In this document: one piece after another, positions 10,817-58,634 of the stretch
Layout: every line of letters begins with the position of its first letter
How positions within the stretch are numbered: the first letter of the stretch is position 1
Assembly (NCBI RefSeq): GCF_017052655.1
Contig: NZ_JAFIDC010000001.1
Span: 496,001 to 560,000 of the forward strand
DNA length: 64,000 bases
From: Acholeplasma equirhinis
GTDB lineage: Bacteria; Bacillota_I; Bacilli_A; Acholeplasmatales; Acholeplasmataceae
Direction of reading: 5' to 3'
Position numbers and translations under genes: made by a program
Notes under the pieces: model-generated
What the model was told of the DNA's origin: nothing
What the model saw: only the letters and a program-made list of their open reading frames with translations
Database searches by the model: none

Positions 10817-10875
10817 CTAAACGAGAATTATATGAACTATGTGATATATTGGAGTCGAAGAGGAGGTACATAGTT

Positions 10876-13830
10876 TTGAAAAAAATAGGAATATTATTGT
10901 TTTTATTGATGTTTTCATTATTCGTAACATTAACTGTTACTTATGCTGCAGAAACACCAAACACACTCGTAGTACATTATTTTAGATATGACCAAACTTA
11001 TGGCAATCATACAATCTGGATGTGGCAATCTGCTCCAACCGGATTAGGGGGTAAAGAATTTAAATTCAATCAAGCGAACACCGATGAACACGGTGCATAT
11101 TTATCAATAAACTTAGCTGCTGATTACTCAACTGCAACTGCTTTAGGTATTATTATTAAAGATGGAGAAGGTTGGAATGGTGAACGTGAACCTGGTGGTG
11201 ATAGATTCATCGATCTAAGCCAAGTGGAAGTAAAATCAGGGGTAGCACATGTTTATTTTGTTCAAGGTCAAGTTCAATTTGGTAAAAGTGATCTAGACCT
11301 AACTAATAACCTTCCTGATTATAGACCTCAAATATTAAGAGCGTCTTTTGCGATTGCTTCTAATAATAAGGTTATTAATTTAAGTCTTTCACATCAAGCA
11401 ACATCATATAAATTATTTGAAGATGGTGTTGAAGTGAAAACAGGATCATTAGGAAATTCAAATAACCACACGATTTCAGGTTATAATTATGAAATTTCAA
11501 AGACATATGAAATTGAAGTTCAGTTTACAAATTCAACTTCAAAGAAATATGTCCAATTAGATGGTATTTATGATACAAATGAATTTGAAGAAGCATTTAC
11601 TTATGATGGTGAATTAGGTGCTATTTATAATGGTGCACAAACAACCTTTAGATTATGGGCACCATTATCACAAGAAGTCAAAGTAAACTTATATAACCAA
11701 GGTCACCCACAGTATGATAGACTTGGTAATGCTTCAGAAGAATTAACACCTTATGCAACACTTGATTTAGAAAAGATTGAAAATGGTGCATGGCAAGTTA
11801 CTGTGAATCAAGATTTAGATTCAAAATATTATACATTTAGTGTGACAAATAATGGTGTCACAAATGAAGTAACAGATCCATACAGTTATTCAACTGGAGC
11901 AAACGGTTTAAGAAGTATGGTTGTTAACTTTGAAAAAACAAACCCTGCTTTTTGGGAATTAGTTCAAAGACCTCAAACGATTAGTTCATTTACAGATTAT
12001 ATTATTTGGGAATTACATGTTAGAGATTTAACATCACATAGTTCATGGAATGGTAATGAAGCATGGAGAGGTAAATTCTTAGGATTATCTCAAAGTGGTA
12101 CAACATATTCTGCAAGTGGTGATACTGTAACAACAGGATTAGACCATATCGAAGAATTAGGAGTTAATGCAGTACATTTATTACCAATTTTTGATTTTGG
12201 ATATATTGATGAAGTGGCACTATTTAAAGACCCAGAAGGTACAACAAATAAATTTAACTGGGGTTATATGCCATATCATTTTAATACACTTGAAGGTTCA
12301 TATTCAACTAATCCATTTGATGGTAATGTAAGAATTTATGAATTCAAACAAGCAGTTAAAGCATTATCTGATAAAAATATCAGAGTAATTATGGACGTTG
12401 TTTATAACCACACTGGTGAGTCAGAAGGTTCAAACTTCCATAAAATCGTTCCAGGATATTTCCATAGATTAAATCAAAATGGTTCATTCTCAAATGGTTC
12501 AGGTACTGGAAATGAAACTGCATCTGAACGTTCAATGGTTAGAAAATTCATGGTAGATTCTACAACATATTTAGCAACTGAATTCAAATTATCAGGTTTC
12601 AGATTTGACTTAATGTCATTACATGATGTTGATACGATGAATGCAATTCGTGATGCTATGGATAAAATTGATCCAACCATCATTTTATATGGTGAACCTT
12701 GGGCAGGTGGAGACACATTAATCGATGGTTCAATTGCTGCAGGTATGACAAATACAAATGGTTGGGATCGTACTCAAATTAGAAAATTAGACAACGGAAT
12801 TGCTGCATTTAATGACTTATATAGAAATGCGTTAAAAGGTTCACCTGATGGTGCTGGTGGTGGTTTTGTTCAAGGTCAAATGGACTACAATAAGATGCAA
12901 GATCTTAGAAAAGGTATCATGGGTGCAACAGACCAATTTACAAATGAACCAACTCAAAATGTTGTGTATGGTGAAGCACACGATAACTTAACATTACACG
13001 ATAAGTTAAGAAGTTCTGGTGTAACAGCATCTGATGTTGTTCACGCACAAGTTCAATCAAACGCGATTGTGTTAACTTCAATGGGTATTCCATTCCTTCA
13101 TGCAGGTACAGAGTTCTTACGCAGTAAACCACTTCAAGGTGGTGGATATGACCACAACTCATATGAATCACCTGACTCAGTAAACCAATTACGTTGGGAT
13201 CGTAAACTTCAATATAAGAATGTCTTTGAATACCATAAAGCATTAATACATATTAGAAAAACATATGATGGTTTGAGACTAAGCTCAAAAGCAGAAATTA
13301 ATCAAAGATTCTCATGGGTTCAAACAACACAAGATGCTACAGATAAGGCATTAGCTTATAAGATTGAAGGTGTAAATGGACAACCAACATTACTCATTAT
13401 TCATGCGGGTAAAGTTAATGGTTCAACCAATGTTACATTAAATGATGGTAAGACTTATATGCAACTAACATCACGTGCTGGTGCTCAAGGCCTCTTCGAT
13501 GTTGAAAAAGGTTTAGTTACAAGAAAAGGTAACTTCTCAGTTACATCAACAAATACAACAGCTATTTTTGTTGAAGTATTAACTATTGAACAAACAACAG
13601 TAAAGAGTGCAAATGTTTCAGTTGCATTAGGTGCAAACTTTAATGAATTATCAAATGTTAATGTTCCAGCTGGTGCTAAAGTTTATGCAACAGATATTAA
13701 TACACAAGTTCCTGGCTTTAAAGTAGTTACAGTTACTGTTGTTGATTACCTTGGTAATAAATCAAATCTTTATTACACAGTGACTGTTTCAGGTGGAAGC
13801 TTCTCAGGTTTAGTAGGAGGTCAAGTATGA
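10876..13830 (+). CDS. pulA: secreted type I pullulanase (GH13_14)
   Basis: Debranching enzyme hydrolysing alpha-1,6 bonds of pullulan, amylopectin or glycogen outside the cell. The start is TTG 10876: AGGAGG at 10861-10866 is ideally spaced, while the upstream in-frame TTG at 10849 lies before that site. The 984 residues comprise a signal peptide (to about 24, TYAA), CBM41 (about 27-130, LVVHYFRYD), a CBM48-like domain (about 245-340, TTFRLWAP), the barrel, and a C-terminal Ig-like region (about 890-975). The pullulanase motif appears as FNWGYMPYHFN. Catalytic residues are D578 (GFRFD), E607 (YGEPW) and D703 (EAHDN). No anchor motif is seen. The stop overlaps the next start by 4 bases. Confidence 0.93.
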   Translation: MKKIGILLFLLMFSLFVTLTVTYAAETPNTLVVHYFRYDQTYGNHTIWMWQSAPTGLGGKEFKFNQANTDEHGAYLSINLAADYSTATALGIIIKDGEGWNGEREPGGDRFIDLSQVEVKSGVAHVYFVQGQVQFGKSDLDLTNNLPDYRPQILRASFAIASNNKVINLSLSHQATSYKLFEDGVEVKTGSLGNSNNHTISGYNYEISKTYEIEVQFTNSTSKKYVQLDGIYDTNEFEEAFTYDGELGAIYNGAQTTFRLWAPLSQEVKVNLYNQGHPQYDRLGNASEELTPYATLDLEKIENGAWQVTVNQDLDSKYYTFSVTNNGVTNEVTDPYSYSTGANGLRSMVVNFEKTNPAFWELVQRPQTISSFTDYIIWELHVRDLTSHSSWNGNEAWRGKFLGLSQSGTTYSASGDTVTTGLDHIEELGVNAVHLLPIFDFGYIDEVALFKDPEGTTNKFNWGYMPYHFNTLEGSYSTNPFDGNVRIYEFKQAVKALSDKNIRVIMDVVYNHTGESEGSNFHKIVPGYFHRLNQNGSFSNGSGTGNETASERSMVRKFMVDSTTYLATEFKLSGFRFDLMSLHDVDTMNAIRDAMDKIDPTIILYGEPWAGGDTLIDGSIAAGMTNTNGWDRTQIRKLDNGIAAFNDLYRNALKGSPDGAGGGFVQGQMDYNKMQDLRKGIMGATDQFTNEPTQNVVYGEAHDNLTLHDKLRSSGVTASDVVHAQVQSNAIVLTSMGIPFLHAGTEFLRSKPLQGGGYDHNSYESPDSVNQLRWDRKLQYKNVFEYHKALIHIRKTYDGLRLSSKAEINQRFSWVQTTQDATDKALAYKIEGVNGQPTLLIIHAGKVNGSTNVTLNDGKTYMQLTSRAGAQGLFDVEKGLVTRKGNFSVTSTNTTAIFVEVLTIEQTTVKSANVSVALGANFNELSNVNVPAGAKVYATDINTQVPGFKVVTVTVVDYLGNKSNLYYTVTVSGGSFSGLVGGQV

Positions 13831-14189
13831 AAAAAATATTAAGTCTACTCTTTTTAGGTCTTGCTTTATTCTTAGTAGCATGTGATCCTACACAAGAGAA
13901 TCCTACAGGTGTAAAAGTTGATAATTTAACCTTTACAAGTAAAACTGTTACAGCGGATATCAATATTGAATTAGAGATTGAAACTTTAAGTTCTTTAAAA
14001 GAAATTATTGAATCTACAGTTTACGCTGTTTACAACAATCATAAAGATACATTTGGTACAGATACGTATACACTTTATTTCTCAGTGTATTTAGATAGTG
14101 AATCAGTTGGTGAGATTTCATATAAAGTGAATGCTTCACTTCAAAATCCTGGTTTGACCTATGTAGCGGATACTTTACAACTTCCATAA
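13827..14189 (+). CDS. small lipoprotein of unknown function, coupled to pullulanase
   Basis: 120 residues with a lipoprotein signal (lipobox LVAC, Cys19). The rest is a soluble, beta-prone domain (about 30-118) that I do not recognise. Its ATG overlaps the pullulanase stop (ATGA) and a terminator follows directly, so the two are translated from one mRNA. Being membrane anchored and coupled to an enzyme with no anchor, it could tether pullulanase or the products at the surface. That is inference. Confidence 0.8.
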   Translation: MKKILSLLFLGLALFLVACDPTQENPTGVKVDNLTFTSKTVTADINIELEIETLSSLKEIIESTVYAVYNNHKDTFGTDTYTLYFSVYLDSESVGEISYKVNASLQNPGLTYVADTLQLP

Positions 14190-14195
14190 ATCAAG

Positions 14196-14228
14196 AAGAT
14201 GTGTCTTAAATAGACGCATCTTTTTTTG
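14196..14228 (+). terminator. terminator of the pullulanase operon
   Basis: AAGATGTGTCT (14196-14206) pairs with AGACGCATCTT (14212-14222), one G-U pair, followed by a T-run. Confidence 0.85.
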
Positions 14229-14265
14229 CTTTTAAATATGAAATCGTTTCTATAAATCTAAATTG

Positions 14266-14294
14266 TTGCACAATGTAAGCGCATACTATATACT
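14266..14294 (+). promoter_or_regulatory. promoter with cre-like operator in the spacer
   Basis: TTGCAC (14266-14271), 17 bases, TATACT (14289-14294). The spacer contains ATGTAAGCGCATACTA (14273-14288), a one-mismatch match to WTGNNARCGNWWWCAW, so the repressor and polymerase would compete. A weaker relative (GAAATCGTTTC, 14240-14250) lies just upstream. This promoter drives the 36-codon ORF and the secreted protein behind it. Confidence 0.7.
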
Positions 14295-14337
14295 TTATAT
14301 AAACAATAATCACTTATTTTTAAGGGGGAGAGATACA

Positions 14338-14448
14338 GTGAAAAAATATTATGAGGAATCTATCCTCGAAGTTGTCGATTTTTCTGTTGAAGAAAGTATC
14401 GCTTCATCAGGTGCGGTTTTGTATGAAGAAGTGTGGAGTCAAAGCTAA
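14338..14448 (+). CDS. 36-residue peptide, translationally coupled to a secreted protein
   Basis: GTG start at 14338 with AGGGGGAG at 14323-14330 (7-base spacing). The product has 36 residues, strongly acidic (nine E, one D), starting MKKYYEESILEVVDFS and containing SIASSGAVLYEE. It has no transmembrane segment and no cysteine. Its TAA shares one base with the ATG of the next gene (TAATG). The N-terminal MKKxYExxxLEVV pattern resembles short leader-like peptides that I associate with clostridial genomes, some suspected to be modified-peptide precursors; this is a recollection of pattern, not a proven homology. A plain translational-coupling role is the main alternative. Confidence 0.65.
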   Translation: MKKYYEESILEVVDFSVEESIASSGAVLYEEVWSQS

Positions 14449-15839
14449 TGAGAAAAGTTAGTATTTTATCTATGCTTTTGATTTGGGCATTTGCATTAGG
14501 TCTATTATTAGTTCCTAGTGTATTTGCAGATGATCCAGTTTTACCTTCTGGAGAAATTCAACTTATTGTTTATACTGATGGGTCTGGTCCAGCAGTAGAA
14601 ACCGAATTTGAAGGTCCACTTGGACAATTAGTAGAAATTGATGTTGAGAGTTTAGAAATTAAAGATAAAGAGTTCTCTTTCTTCATTCATAACGGACAAA
14701 AAATAACTAATCCTAACACTCAATTCTTAGTTTCTAAATCCACTAAAGTGGTGGTTGTGTTTAAAGGTGAAGATGAAATTGTAGCTGCATTCGTCGATAC
14801 GAATGGTCAAGTTTTACACATGCAATATGGTGTTGATGAAATTGATTTAGAGTATGCTGAAGATTCACCATATCCATCAAAACCAGGGTTTCAGTTTAGT
14901 CATTGGAGTGTAAATACAAATGTAACAACTGATACGATTGTAAAACCTGTCTATATTGCTTCAAACATTGATGATATTGTGGTAACTGTTGATGGTGATC
15001 CTATGTTATATCCGTATAACTCGATTGTCACTATAGAATCTGAAGTATCTGAATTTACACATTGGGAAGATGAAAATGGTGTAATTGTTTCCTATGATAG
15101 TATTTATCAATTCACTGCATTAGAAAACATTTCACTTGTTTCAAAAACCGATGGTGAAGAGAAACCAATGGTTTATCTAAGAGATGTTACCGGAATAGTA
15201 GATGGAGCAGAATCATTCTTAGGGCAAGTTTACCTACCAACAGGTTATAGCGTTGTTGAGTGGGGATTCATAGGATCGAATACTGCAGAAAATGGTCAAT
15301 ATTTACCAGAATTAGATGATCTAGATGTTGAAGTTAAAACATTAACAGCTATGTTATCATCAACTGGTGAATTTTTAACTCGTATTATTGGTGAAGGTTA
15401 TGCATATACTAGAGCTTACGCGATTATTAAAGATGAATTAGGTAATTTAGAGTACTTATATAGTGACGTAAGAAATAAGATAAAAGTAATTTTTGAATTG
15501 AACTTTGGTTGGTCAACACCAGTAAATGAAATTGAAGGTGCGTATGTTAAAGGATCATTTAATGGTTGGAGTACGAGTCATAAGATGAATCATGTGATAA
15601 AAGAAGGCGTGAATACAGCATTTGAACTTACAGTTGAATTTGTCTTTATGAAACAAATGCCAACTATAGAATTTAAGTTCTATCATGTGATTCCAGGTGG
15701 ATGGGGTCCTGGACCTTCTGATTTTTCAGGATATGATGCAAGATGGTATGGAGATGGAGATGCAAATTTAACTAAATCAGTAAGTCCAATTAATGGAGCT
15801 ATACAAATTGCATTACCTAGTCCTTATTGGGTAGATTAA
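14448..15839 (+). CDS. secreted InlB-repeat-like protein with C-terminal starch-binding-like module
   Basis: 463 residues; ATG 14448 shares a base with the stop of the upstream 36-codon ORF, with GTGGAG upstream. It has a Sec signal peptide (cleavage near VFAD, about 26) and no lipobox or sorting signal. Residues about 35-330 are shared in order with the protein at 56554: FLVSKSTK, EIVAAFVDTNGQ, an InlB B-repeat-like PSKPGFQFSHW segment, YPYNS, SFLGQ, and RAYAIIKD. The C-terminal part (about 345-463) has VKGSFNGWS, typical of CBM48/SusE-like starch-binding folds. With its operator-controlled promoter inside the glucan island it is probably a surface alpha-glucan-binding protein. Confidence 0.75.
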   Translation: MRKVSILSMLLIWAFALGLLLVPSVFADDPVLPSGEIQLIVYTDGSGPAVETEFEGPLGQLVEIDVESLEIKDKEFSFFIHNGQKITNPNTQFLVSKSTKVVVVFKGEDEIVAAFVDTNGQVLHMQYGVDEIDLEYAEDSPYPSKPGFQFSHWSVNTNVTTDTIVKPVYIASNIDDIVVTVDGDPMLYPYNSIVTIESEVSEFTHWEDENGVIVSYDSIYQFTALENISLVSKTDGEEKPMVYLRDVTGIVDGAESFLGQVYLPTGYSVVEWGFIGSNTAENGQYLPELDDLDVEVKTLTAMLSSTGEFLTRIIGEGYAYTRAYAIIKDELGNLEYLYSDVRNKIKVIFELNFGWSTPVNEIEGAYVKGSFNGWSTSHKMNHVIKEGVNTAFELTVEFVFMKQMPTIEFKFYHVIPGGWGPGPSDFSGYDARWYGDGDANLTKSVSPINGAIQIALPSPYWVD

Positions 15840-15853
15840 CAAAAAAATAATAT

Positions 15854-15885
15854 AAAAGCGGTTCGTGCTGAACCGCTTTTCTTAT
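15854..15885. terminator. bidirectional terminator between the secreted protein and the amylase
   Basis: Perfect 11-base stem AAAAGCGGTTC / GAACCGCTTTT with a 5-base loop, T-rich on both flanks; it serves both converging genes. Confidence 0.9.
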
Positions 15886-15892
15886 GCATAAA

Positions 15893-17470
15893 TTAGATAT
15901 AGTTGTTAACTTTAGATCCATCAATCTCAAGAACTAAAGTTCCCCATGCAGGAATTGTTAATGAATTTCCGTAAATATAGTCTAAATATTCAACATCAAC
16001 TGATCTTGCAGTATCTGATATGTTATGGATAACTAATACAGTTTGACTGAATCCTGTTGTTGAATATTGTCTTACAAATCCTTGTAAGAAAGAACTATTA
16101 TCCTTCCATGCTTTCATGTAATTACCATACATTAAAGCTGGAGTGTCTTTTCTAATATTTGCGAAAGTTTTATAAGTAGTATAAAGTGAGTTTGAATCAT
16201 TAATAGATGATGCAACAGTTGCACCTTGATTAGATCCGTTATAAGGCATTAACCAATCAGTTTGATATTGATTACTTGCTCCCCATAGGAATGGTGCTCT
16301 TCTGTATTGATCCCAAATTGCACCTTGACCGTTTGGATTTTCACCACCATATGCAACACCTTTCATTCCGATTTCATCTCCATAATAAATATGAGGTGAA
16401 CCAGGTAGTGTTAACATAAATTGAGCAGCCATTTTTAATTTATTTAATCCATTTGCACCATTAAATTCATTTCTTGATGCAATTCTATCAATATCGTGAT
16501 TTGAGATGAAAATACTTGGAACATAGTTTGTATCATAAGGTTTATAAGTATTAAAACTTTTTTCGATATTTGAGACGAGTTGATAAATTTGATTTCCACC
16601 ACCAATTTTGCCCCAAATTTGAGCTGCAGCATAGAAGTCGAATAATGAGTCAAGTCCTATGTAATATTGGTTATATGCGACGTATTCGTATTCGAATACT
16701 TCACCTACAAAGAATACATCAGGATTTATCGTTTTAACATAATCTTTTAAGTTTTTTAAGAATGTATAGTTTTTAGCTTGTGCTTGAGCAGGTTGAGAAC
16801 CTGGATCACCTAAGAAGAGATGCTTAGCAGCATCAAATCTAAAGCCGTGTATACCTTTATCAACCCAAAATGCCATAATGTCTTTGATTTCTTGAACAAC
16901 ATCAGGATTATTTAGATTTAAGTCTTTCATACCACCTGCAAATGATTCAAATGCAGTGTTTGCTGCTGTCCATATATACCAATCACGGTAAGGACTATTT
17001 ACGCCTTCTTTAGCTGACATAAACCAAGGATGTGTGTCTGATGTGTGATTGATAACTAAATCCATCACTATTTTAATATCTAGTTTATTAGCTTCTTCGA
17101 TTAAATTTTCTAGATCTTCCATTGTACCATATTCAGGATTGACCTTGTAATAGTCTTTAATACGATAACCATGATATGAATTCCAGTCTGTATCTGTTTC
17201 ATTAAATGGTAACATCCAAATGGCAGTTGCACCTAAATCTTTAATGTAGTCTAAATTAGCAGTTAAACCGTTAATGTCCCCAACACCATCACCGTCTGAA
17301 TCTGCAAATGATCGTATAAATACTTGATAATAAATATCATTTCTTGGATTTAGGGCACGCAAGTCGGGTGTTTGATCAATCGGTTCATTGCCACCACCAC
17401 TGGTAGTATCACAAGCGATTAATAAAACTGATAATAAAGCAATTATCATTAAATTAATAAGTTTTTTCAT
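15893..17470 (-). CDS. alpha-amylase-family lipoprotein (GH13), extracellular
   Basis: Surface-anchored GH13 enzyme of 525 residues, likely releasing maltodextrins from starch. The lipobox is LLIAC with Cys20, followed by a Gly-rich linker. The barrel contains the calcium-type loop DSDGDGVGD (about 58-66), region I DLVINHTSD (about 137-145), region II GFRFD (D213), region III GEV (E257) and region IV SNHD (D326); all three acids are present. The architecture resembles neopullulanase-free, amylase/oligo-glucosidase-like secreted GH13 proteins. The start is fixed by AAGGGGGA. An operator lies 86 bases upstream. Confidence 0.88.
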   Translation of the reverse strand: MKKLINLMIIALLSVLLIACDTTSGGGNEPIDQTPDLRALNPRNDIYYQVFIRSFADSDGDGVGDINGLTANLDYIKDLGATAIWMLPFNETDTDWNSYHGYRIKDYYKVNPEYGTMEDLENLIEEANKLDIKIVMDLVINHTSDTHPWFMSAKEGVNSPYRDWYIWTAANTAFESFAGGMKDLNLNNPDVVQEIKDIMAFWVDKGIHGFRFDAAKHLFLGDPGSQPAQAQAKNYTFLKNLKDYVKTINPDVFFVGEVFEYEYVAYNQYYIGLDSLFDFYAAAQIWGKIGGGNQIYQLVSNIEKSFNTYKPYDTNYVPSIFISNHDIDRIASRNEFNGANGLNKLKMAAQFMLTLPGSPHIYYGDEIGMKGVAYGGENPNGQGAIWDQYRRAPFLWGASNQYQTDWLMPYNGSNQGATVASSINDSNSLYTTYKTFANIRKDTPALMYGNYMKAWKDNSSFLQGFVRQYSTTGFSQTVLVIHNISDTARSVDVEYLDYIYGNSLTIPAWGTLVLEIDGSKVNNYI

Positions 17471-56553: not shown

Positions 56554-58476
56554 TTAATACAATGTTTGAAGATAAGCATTGATTGAAACTTCAAGATCTG
56601 ACCAAGGAACAATATTTCTCATATTTTTGGCAATTGTTGATACACTTGTACCAGCAATTCTTCCTTGAACTGCTATTAAATAAGCATTTTGAATCTTAAT
56701 CACTGGCACATCACAAGCTTCATAAATCCATAAAAGTAATTCTGGACTTAATAATTTTGAATAAACTCTTGTTTTTGCACTTTCCGTATATGAAAGTGTT
56801 CCTGCTGCAATGCTAGGATACATCCAAGAATCAAAAAAGTGCCATTTTTGATTTGGTGAATGTTGTGATTTATCAACAAGTATTCCTAAACTTTTTGCAA
56901 GTGCGATATAACCACCACTTGCTTGTTGGTGATCTTCGATAAACATATCTGATATTGGATAATGTTCATTTTTTGTTTGTAAAAATACTGCAATTTCATA
57001 CATTGAAATGAATCCGTCATTAATAATAACTTGACCATCTGATGGATTTGTTGGATTTTCAGGATTTTCAACAACTGGAGGTTCTTTTTGAACTATAGAT
57101 GTCGTTTTAAAGAATCTAATATTATCTAGACCACCATCCCAGTTTGTAGCAGTAAGTGGGTCTTTGTTTACGAATGTAAGTGTAATTTCTTTTTCACCAT
57201 TTGTTTGTATTTCAAAGTTTCTGACTAAACTAGTACCAGTAATTGTCGTATCTCCAATGACCCAAGCAGTTTTACTTTGTGTTCCTAGTTTTAAATCAAC
57301 TAAAACTTTATCAAAACCAGTCACATCAATGGTTACTACTTTAGGATCTGGATAGTTACTATTAATTCTCACATAGAATGTATTGTTATCAATTTTCCCT
57401 GCTGCTGTTGTTGAAACATTACCAAAACCAGTAACTCTACCAAAAGTTTTTTCTTGAAAATAACCGGTACCCGTACTATATGATTCGAAGTTTTCAACAT
57501 CAATTAATCCTAAAACATTATCGGAATAAATAAATTCTAAATTGTTATCGTTTTTAACAATCAAATATGCTCTAACTGTAAGATATTTATCGATTGGTAG
57601 TGATCTTAAAAATTCATTTGTATGTGCAAACGCTGTTGATGGTATTTTAGTACCATTCTCAATTGTTAATGGTGTAACAAAAGTTTCCGTTACAACTAAT
57701 CCAGCTTCAACGAATTCATAACCTTCAGTTAACATATATTGTCCCAGATAGGATTTGTGACCACCTCTAAGTGTTAACTCATTTGATAAAACTATGTTAG
57801 GGGTTGTTACTAGCCCTTCAACAGATACTAACTTTCTTGGATATATTACTGAAAATTCATAAACTGGTCCAACTGAAACAGGTATTCCATATTCTTCCCA
57901 ATGGAAACCATCTTCTGCATAAATTGTTTGAACTGAATTATATACATAATATTCTGATTGGCCATCAATGATAATTTCAATATCATCATATTCCATTTCA
58001 TATTGTGCAACAAATACTGTATCAGAAGTTATCGGATAATCTGGTAAATTAAAACCGGTAAATTTAAATCCGGGTTTTGTTGGTACTGCACCATCATAAG
58101 TTGGTAGCAAAGAAAATTCTCCATACAGTGCGTATAAGAATTTCCCATTTGAATCAACAAATGCTGCAACTACCTGCTCTTCTTCTTTTAATATCATAGT
58201 AATAGCTGTTGAATGACTTACTAAGAAATTTCTGTTTATTTCTTGACTGTATTCTCCATTAAATATGTGGAATGCATAGCCAGTTATAGCAAATGACATA
58301 TTGACATGTTCTCCATAATAACCTGTTAGGTTTAATTCAAATGGTTCATTATCTGGAGTTACAACATTAATCTCTATTTCAGTTTGTTCATTTACGGCAA
58401 ATAACATTGGAGTCATATAGATTCCAATAAATAAAACACTTATAAAACTAAGTGTGGTTAATACGATCTTTTTCAT
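56554..58476 (-). CDS. large secreted InlB-repeat-like protein with jelly-roll and unknown C-terminal domain
   Basis: 640 residues with a Sec signal peptide (cleavage near MLFAVNE, about 27). Residues about 35-330 match the protein at 14448 in order: FLVSHSTAI, QVVAAFVDSNGK, PTKPGFKFTGF, YVYNS, SYLGQ, RAYLIVKN. Residues about 335-475 look like a carbohydrate-binding jelly roll (GNVSTTAAGKIDNNTFYVR ... WDGGLDNIRFF). A linker rich in P and N follows (about 480-500), then about 135 residues I do not recognise. It is translationally coupled to a 43-residue ORF. It is probably a surface ligand-binding protein; no enzyme motif is seen. Confidence 0.75.
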   Translation of the reverse strand: MKKIVLTTLSFISVLFIGIYMTPMLFAVNEQTEIEINVVTPDNEPFELNLTGYYGEHVNMSFAITGYAFHIFNGEYSQEINRNFLVSHSTAITMILKEEEQVVAAFVDSNGKFLYALYGEFSLLPTYDGAVPTKPGFKFTGFNLPDYPITSDTVFVAQYEMEYDDIEIIIDGQSEYYVYNSVQTIYAEDGFHWEEYGIPVSVGPVYEFSVIYPRKLVSVEGLVTTPNIVLSNELTLRGGHKSYLGQYMLTEGYEFVEAGLVVTETFVTPLTIENGTKIPSTAFAHTNEFLRSLPIDKYLTVRAYLIVKNDNNLEFIYSDNVLGLIDVENFESYSTGTGYFQEKTFGRVTGFGNVSTTAAGKIDNNTFYVRINSNYPDPKVVTIDVTGFDKVLVDLKLGTQSKTAWVIGDTTITGTSLVRNFEIQTNGEKEITLTFVNKDPLTATNWDGGLDNIRFFKTTSIVQKEPPVVENPENPTNPSDGQVIINDGFISMYEIAVFLQTKNEHYPISDMFIEDHQQASGGYIALAKSLGILVDKSQHSPNQKWHFFDSWMYPSIAAGTLSYTESAKTRVYSKLLSPELLLWIYEACDVPVIKIQNAYLIAVQGRIAGTSVSTIAKNMRNIVPWSDLEVSINAYLQTLY

Positions 58477-58607
58477 CAGTATTGCACCTCACTTTGATAC
58501 TGGATACTTTGAGGTAATTTAGTTGTTCCATATAAACTTGGTTTCATAAGTTTAAACATGATTGCTTCAGGTGCCATCATTGTGAGTTTTATTATCCCTT
58601 TTATCAT
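58476..58607 (-). CDS. 43-residue peptide coupled to the secreted protein
   Basis: ATG 58607 behind GGAG; 43 residues, basic and methionine-rich (MIKGIIKLTMMAPEAIMFKL), with KPSLYGTTKLPQSIQ after it. Its TGA shares one base with the ATG of the downstream gene (TGATG), just as at 14448. It has no cysteine or clear membrane span; the first half could form an amphipathic helix. I do not recognise it. The position, not the sequence, is shared with the 36-residue ORF. Confidence 0.6.
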   Translation of the reverse strand: MIKGIIKLTMMAPEAIMFKLMKPSLYGTTKLPQSIQYQSEVQY

Positions 58608-58634
58608 AAAAATCTCCTCTATTAAATTATCACT

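Follow-up and report, generated by a model that had tools for sequence, protein, structure and literature searches.

A family of exported scaffold proteins and its candidate RiPP precursor partners in an Acholeplasma genome

On balance, we favor the view that the locus examined here is one of five scaffold genes in its genome, members of a family that partners a RiPP system of the linear polyphosphorylated peptide (LPP) type. It lies in a 64-kb stretch of Acholeplasma DNA, the whole of which we call the window. Both the scaffold and the partner peptides are conserved in this family, whereas the pair originally flagged no longer has the family peptide. This type of RiPP is already known; the new part is the one-to-one coupling of its precursors to exported modular proteins in Acholeplasma-like bacteria, of which we found no account in the open-licence papers searched.

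The scaffold family and its C-terminal modules

The focal pair consists of a tiny ORF with an ATG start and a 640-aa protein with an N-terminal hydrophobic stretch that follows MKK and ends FA|V, resembling a signal peptide. The original prediction had the two ORFs overlapping as TGATG, and the ORF coordinates bear this out (Table 1). No promoter or terminator signals above chance were found around the pair.

Table 1. Features of the focal pair and of the comparator pair within the window
Feature	Positions	Strand	Basis
Focal scaffold-family protein, 640 aa, Sec-exported	56554..58476	-	ORF; four paralogues in genome
Conserved scaffold region, focal residues 1-318	57523..58476	-	Alignment with 20 homologues
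Exchangeable module, focal residues 319-465 (putative; originally labeled "jelly roll")	57082..57522	-	Aligned with scaffold-less secreted protein L141
C-terminal module, focal residues 485-636, no Pfam family	56569..57024	-	Similarity to secreted proteins
43-codon tiny ORF, outside the precursor family	58476..58607	-	TGATG overlap with scaffold gene
Shine-Dalgarno sequence AGAGGAG of the focal tiny ORF	58614..58620	-	Sequence; simulation
Probable LPP-type precursor ORF, 36 codons	14338..14448	+	GTG start, TAATG overlap; precursor HMM E 2.7e-16 / 2.7e-15
Scaffold paralogue, 463 aa, different C-terminal module (comparator)	14448..15839	+	Homology to focal protein

The focal pair had been proposed to be paralogous to the one at 14338. 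This holds for the scaffold proteins, which are 33% identical over focal residues 1-319 (E 2e-37) and so share the N-terminal scaffold attributed to them, and fails for the tiny ORFs, of which only the 14338 peptide belongs to the precursor family described below. Further members had been left to a genome-wide search. Searching the 1.45-Mb genome with the focal protein located five paralogues with differing C-termini (C1:552557, 1108309, 510448, 15246, and 951979), two of them within the window. Common to all five is a Sec-exported N-terminal region of ~320 aa, the scaffold. A scaffold profile run against 60 relatives recovered full-length homologues in several genera and families, nearly all of them accompanied by a tiny ORF. 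Neither the scaffold nor the tiny peptides match a family in Pfam or NCBIfam, and comparison of the scaffold profile with solved structures, by sequence, found none (best E 0.47). In two genomes the scaffold gene is broken near its start by a frameshift or stop (L066 13048-13210; L065 reverse strand 3086); the interruption in L066 may be an assembly homopolymer error.

The C-terminal modules have been exchanged, because the C-terminal half of the focal protein aligns end to end with a secreted protein that has no scaffold. Residues 319-636 match the complete 378-aa sequence of that protein, which comes from a different family (34% across 353 aa; E 3e-58), and over residues 487-632 the identity to a third secreted protein is 65%. 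The focal protein is thus a scaffold fused to the body of another secreted protein. Secreted proteins from three genomes in one other family (f11) match its C-terminal module at 49 to 65% identity, and the module is absent from all other genomes searched in the focal genome's own genus or family. The idea of a constant scaffold carrying exchangeable C-terminal modules thus stands, as does the predicted difference between the C-termini of the focal and 14448 proteins. For the "starch-binding-like" label given to the latter, the Pfam evidence is a subthreshold match to AMPK1_CBM (E 0.059). Pullulanase-like and alpha-amylase-like genes flank the 14338/14448 pair (window 10849-17470), neighbors that would fit a starch-related role of this module.

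Tiny ORFs upstream of the scaffold genes

Four of the five scaffolds in the genome are directly preceded by tiny ORFs of a single family: MSTENKKQYEVPMIEIIEFNTKNSIAESVGQHGAGFFEEM, MENTKQQYTSPEIEIVEMSVEQSIAASADGVSLWEEMWG, MRENKEKLNYSTPEIEVLEINPNTTIAVSGQGVAVFEE, and, at 14338, (V/M)KKYYEESILEVVDFSVEESIASSGAVLYEEVWSQS. These are conserved acidic ORFs of 36 to 40 aa, with a net charge of -4 to -7 and the motif YxxPx[IV]E[IV]xEFxxxxSIAxS; in the 14338 copy YxxP reads YEES, with Ser for Pro. The sequence is conserved across several taxonomic families. Residues of the leader half are nearly invariant (Tyr 40/40, Pro 39/40, Glu 37/40, Ser 37/40), whereas the tail varies, as in RiPP precursors, with Ser occupying the proposed core phosphorylation position in 36 of 39 precursors scored. 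The small partners had been predicted to be variable, but they prove to form a conserved family of precursors, in which the leader is conserved and the tail varies, and the focal ORF is the outlier.

The pairing was counted over every locus fetched, each of which was retrieved via one or the other partner, and the counts therefore characterize the family rather than sampling it without bias. Of 55 distinct scaffolds with a complete N-terminus, 44 have an adjoining tiny ORF whose end lies between -4 and +17 nt from the scaffold start; the other 11 have no adjacent precursor. A scaffold gene follows 43 of 55 distinct precursor ORFs, and three more precursors sit at contig ends. Members of the precursor profile occur in 46 of 395 genomes of the class; at the Clostridia loci the precursor candidates are weak. 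Upstream of several precursors in the genus are cre-like (catabolite control) boxes (window 14200-14340; L233 4750-4830; the upstream region of L006). Such boxes, with 8/9 matches, were found in 6 of 55 precursor upstream regions against 1.6 expected, a weak enrichment.

The focal tiny ORF falls outside this family. Its peptide has a net charge of +3, compared with -6 for the 14338 peptide, which agrees with the original description of one as basic and the other as acidic, and it has no homologue in 60 related genomes. Two candidate origins were rejected: a frame-shifted precursor by a search of all six frames with the precursor HMM, which gave no match, and a diverged precursor by the precursor PSSM, which scored the ORF below the shuffled mean (p 0.90) with no match to the YxxP motif. 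The ORF is best read as the site of a lost or replaced precursor, probably now at most a translational leader, a verdict that rests on lack of similarity across 43 aa. The focal copy either relies on peptide made at the other loci, acting in trans, or no longer takes part in the system.

That the focal ORF is only a leader, in which ribosome traffic opens the scaffold start and the peptide is functionless, is a serious possibility, if somewhat short of an even chance: the Shine-Dalgarno sequence and the overlap are both present where the precursor peptide is absent and the peptide shows no sequence conservation. We consider it improbable that the ORF arose by chance ahead of an ordinary modular surface protein, with no tie to a RiPP. 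The ORF does lack a homologue, and its GC content by codon position is flat (0.36/0.32/0.30). However, when the upstream DNA was simulated with a first-order Markov model, an ORF of 43 codons or more ended at the focal TGATG with p = 0.0086, falling to p = 5e-5 once a Shine-Dalgarno sequence was also demanded, and the focal scaffold itself belongs to a RiPP-linked family. As a scaffold that lacks a recognizable precursor, the focal copy offers a natural control for what the peptide contributes.

Maturation machinery and relation to known systems

The maturation machinery is encoded in the same genome, outside the window. Genes for an HprK-like kinase, an RRE, and an S24/S26 peptidase lie at ~C1:1112300-1113800, ~3 kb upstream of the pair at 1109 kb, and an NTP_transf_5 enzyme (PF14907, 152.5 bits) is encoded apart from them at C1:97059. 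The RRE is a discrete PqqD-like protein (PF05402, 57.2 bits; cut-off, 23.4). The kinase has the conserved P-loop SAPSGTGKST, and its best NCBIfam matches, ScmC and HprK_rel_B, fall below their cut-offs (ScmC E 1e-11, far under the cut-off). The peptidase is SipW-like, matching PF00717 above the cut-off and TIGR02228 below it (E 2e-8), with the catalytic residues Ser33, His70, and Asp85 invariant among 11 sequences.

In most relatives the machinery is adjacent to the pair, with genes for the HprK-like kinase, the S24/S26 signal-peptidase-like protein, NTP_transf_5, and a divergent ABC exporter; an MsbA-like exporter adjoins the cluster in several of them, but among the many ABC genes of the genome studied here no single one could be assigned to the system. 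In most scaffold-positive relatives a PqqD-type RRE is encoded on the same strand ~1 to 3.5 kb upstream of the pair. All 15 scaffold-positive genomes carry PqqD, which is present in 25 of 61 genomes overall (Fisher p 4.6e-8), and NTP_transf_5, present in 21 of 61 (p 7.7e-10), both values being uncorrected for kinship. In several genomes the kinase and RRE are fused in one protein (for example L060 8739-9830; L066 10150-11244), which further supports their joint function.

LPPs are products of the lpp clusters of Bacillota described by Popov et al. in May 2026 (PMC13381572). Their core set comprises LppK, LppB, LppS, LppN, LppD, and a YxxP precursor, and LppK has been described experimentally to polyphosphorylate a Ser that is the third residue after the leader cleavage site (PMC13381572). 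Shared with this set are the HprK-like kinase, the discrete PqqD-type RRE, the SipW/archaeal-type signal peptidase, the NTP transferase, and, in relatives, the MsbA-like exporter, together with the tiny precursor, the YxxP leader, the conserved Ser after the leader, and the lack of a lasso B2 protein. Since the RRE, kinase, SipW-like peptidase, and NTP_transf_5 enzyme correspond to the LPP core set, the four family ORFs of this genome are best read as LPP-type RiPP precursors, an assignment we regard as very probable.

The system also departs from the published one. Whereas the LPP leader consensus is YxxPxVLxHQxIxFETxxS (PMC13381572), the precursors here read IE[VI]xEF...SIAxS after YxxPx[VI], and their conserved Ser is one residue further from the Tyr. 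Their cores are very short, several precursor loci are scattered in one genome, and the precursors are coupled to a Sec-exported scaffold protein, a partner absent from the LPP paper, as is any mention of Acholeplasmatales or Izemoplasmatales hosts. Judged from sequence, the system is of LPP type, apparently as a divergent branch rather than a proven member.

Could the tiny ORFs of the whole family be translational leaders with functionless peptides? The TGATG and TAATG overlaps and the strong Shine-Dalgarno sequences are what such leaders would have. Yet the amino acid sequence is conserved at 44 of 55 loci in several taxonomic families, and the association with the RRE is tight. A pure leader would not keep these features, and we consider this explanation highly improbable for the family.

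Two other known systems bear comparison with the LPP-type assignment. Paeninodin-type lasso peptides likewise combine an RRE, an HprK-like kinase, an NTP transferase, and a YxxP/WxxP leader logic, and NCBIfam gave a weak hit to lasso_PadeA_fam (E 0.083). In contrast to that type, a signal-peptidase-like protein takes the place of the B2 transglutaminase-like leader peptidase (PF13471), of which the genome has none, and lasso precursors were ruled out on this ground; no macrolactam synthetase (C protein) was seen in the cluster regions read. The SynChlorMet cassette and HprK-related kinase systems (TIGR04249, TIGR04352, TIGR04355) include the best named relatives of the kinase (ScmC), but the cluster in this genome lacks their radical SAM pair, and radical SAM proteins appear only in some distant relatives. 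Izemoplasmatales-like genomes (L107, L108, L109, and L111) have a radical SAM enzyme in the cluster and precursor tails with a conserved Cys (SIA.SGDFGS.T.CGEE.F), a combination that suggests an additional modification.

Possible roles of the peptide and scaffold

The following model extends homology to LPP to the pairs described here. In the usual arrangement, seen at four of the five loci in this genome, a tiny precursor gene would be translationally coupled to the scaffold gene. The RRE would bind the precursor via YxxP, the HprK-like kinase would phosphorylate or polyphosphorylate the invariant Ser just after SIA, and the SipW-like peptidase would remove the leader near SIA. The NTP_transf_5 enzyme may modify the peptide further before an ABC exporter releases the product, with the scaffold presumably leaving via Sec. 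Outside the cell, the N-terminal scaffold domain may receive, carry, or respond to the modified peptide, while target binding may fall to the exchangeable C-terminal module. The focal copy took its C-terminal half from another secreted protein, and its precursor would have disappeared or given way to an unrelated coupled leader ORF.

A physical partnership of the peptide with the scaffold N-domain outside the cell has, in our estimation, close to an even chance of being correct; operon coupling alone could reflect coregulation. A more specific version, in which the peptide, once processed and modified with phosphate or a nucleotide, binds or is covalently attached to the extracellular scaffold domain and anchors or activates the interchangeable binding modules, seems rather unlikely. 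If it were true, LPP-type peptides would serve modular proteins exported by Sec as partners or prosthetic groups, a form of peptide-based display in largely wall-less bacteria.

Antagonism would be a different use of the same genes, with the modified peptide as a bacteriocin-like product and the scaffold protein as the partner that delivers it or provides immunity. Scaffolds do have ABC exporters and Endonuclease_1 ORFs as neighbors, and LPPs have the patchy distribution typical of conflict genes (PMC13381572). Against this, the scaffolds within the genome carry different C-termini, two of the five have pullulanase/amylase or amino-sugar genes as neighbors instead of nucleases, and no conserved immunity-like membrane gene was found; we rate antagonism as unlikely. 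At machinery-linked loci, an Endonuclease I ORF lies directly 3' of the scaffold in L006 (reverse strand), L060 (14358-15161), L057, and L107, and such ORFs beside scaffolds often have lamin-tail or Ig-like domains.

The role of LPP peptides is unknown (PMC13381572), so the pairing of precursor and scaffold provides a testable clue. For the favored LPP-type reading, an exported protein whose scaffold is constant and whose modules are exchangeable becomes a candidate physical partner of LPP-like precursors, almost one-to-one in this lineage, and the RiPP type is extended to Acholeplasma-like bacteria.

Some precursors have an unrelated secreted protein as their neighbor on one side or the other (L117, L118, L119, and L120), and in two cases the precursor lies immediately downstream rather than upstream of it (L119 6843-9749; L120 6893-8555). 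The genome studied here has a second LPP-like set at C1:605826-609139 (L233 4827-8139), in which the precursor MENLIKRCYETPSIEITEFDEKVHANSTSVPVDSWFAD is followed by a 669-aa secreted protein of another family, and the last gene encodes a single protein fusing an HprK-like kinase with an S24/S26 peptidase.
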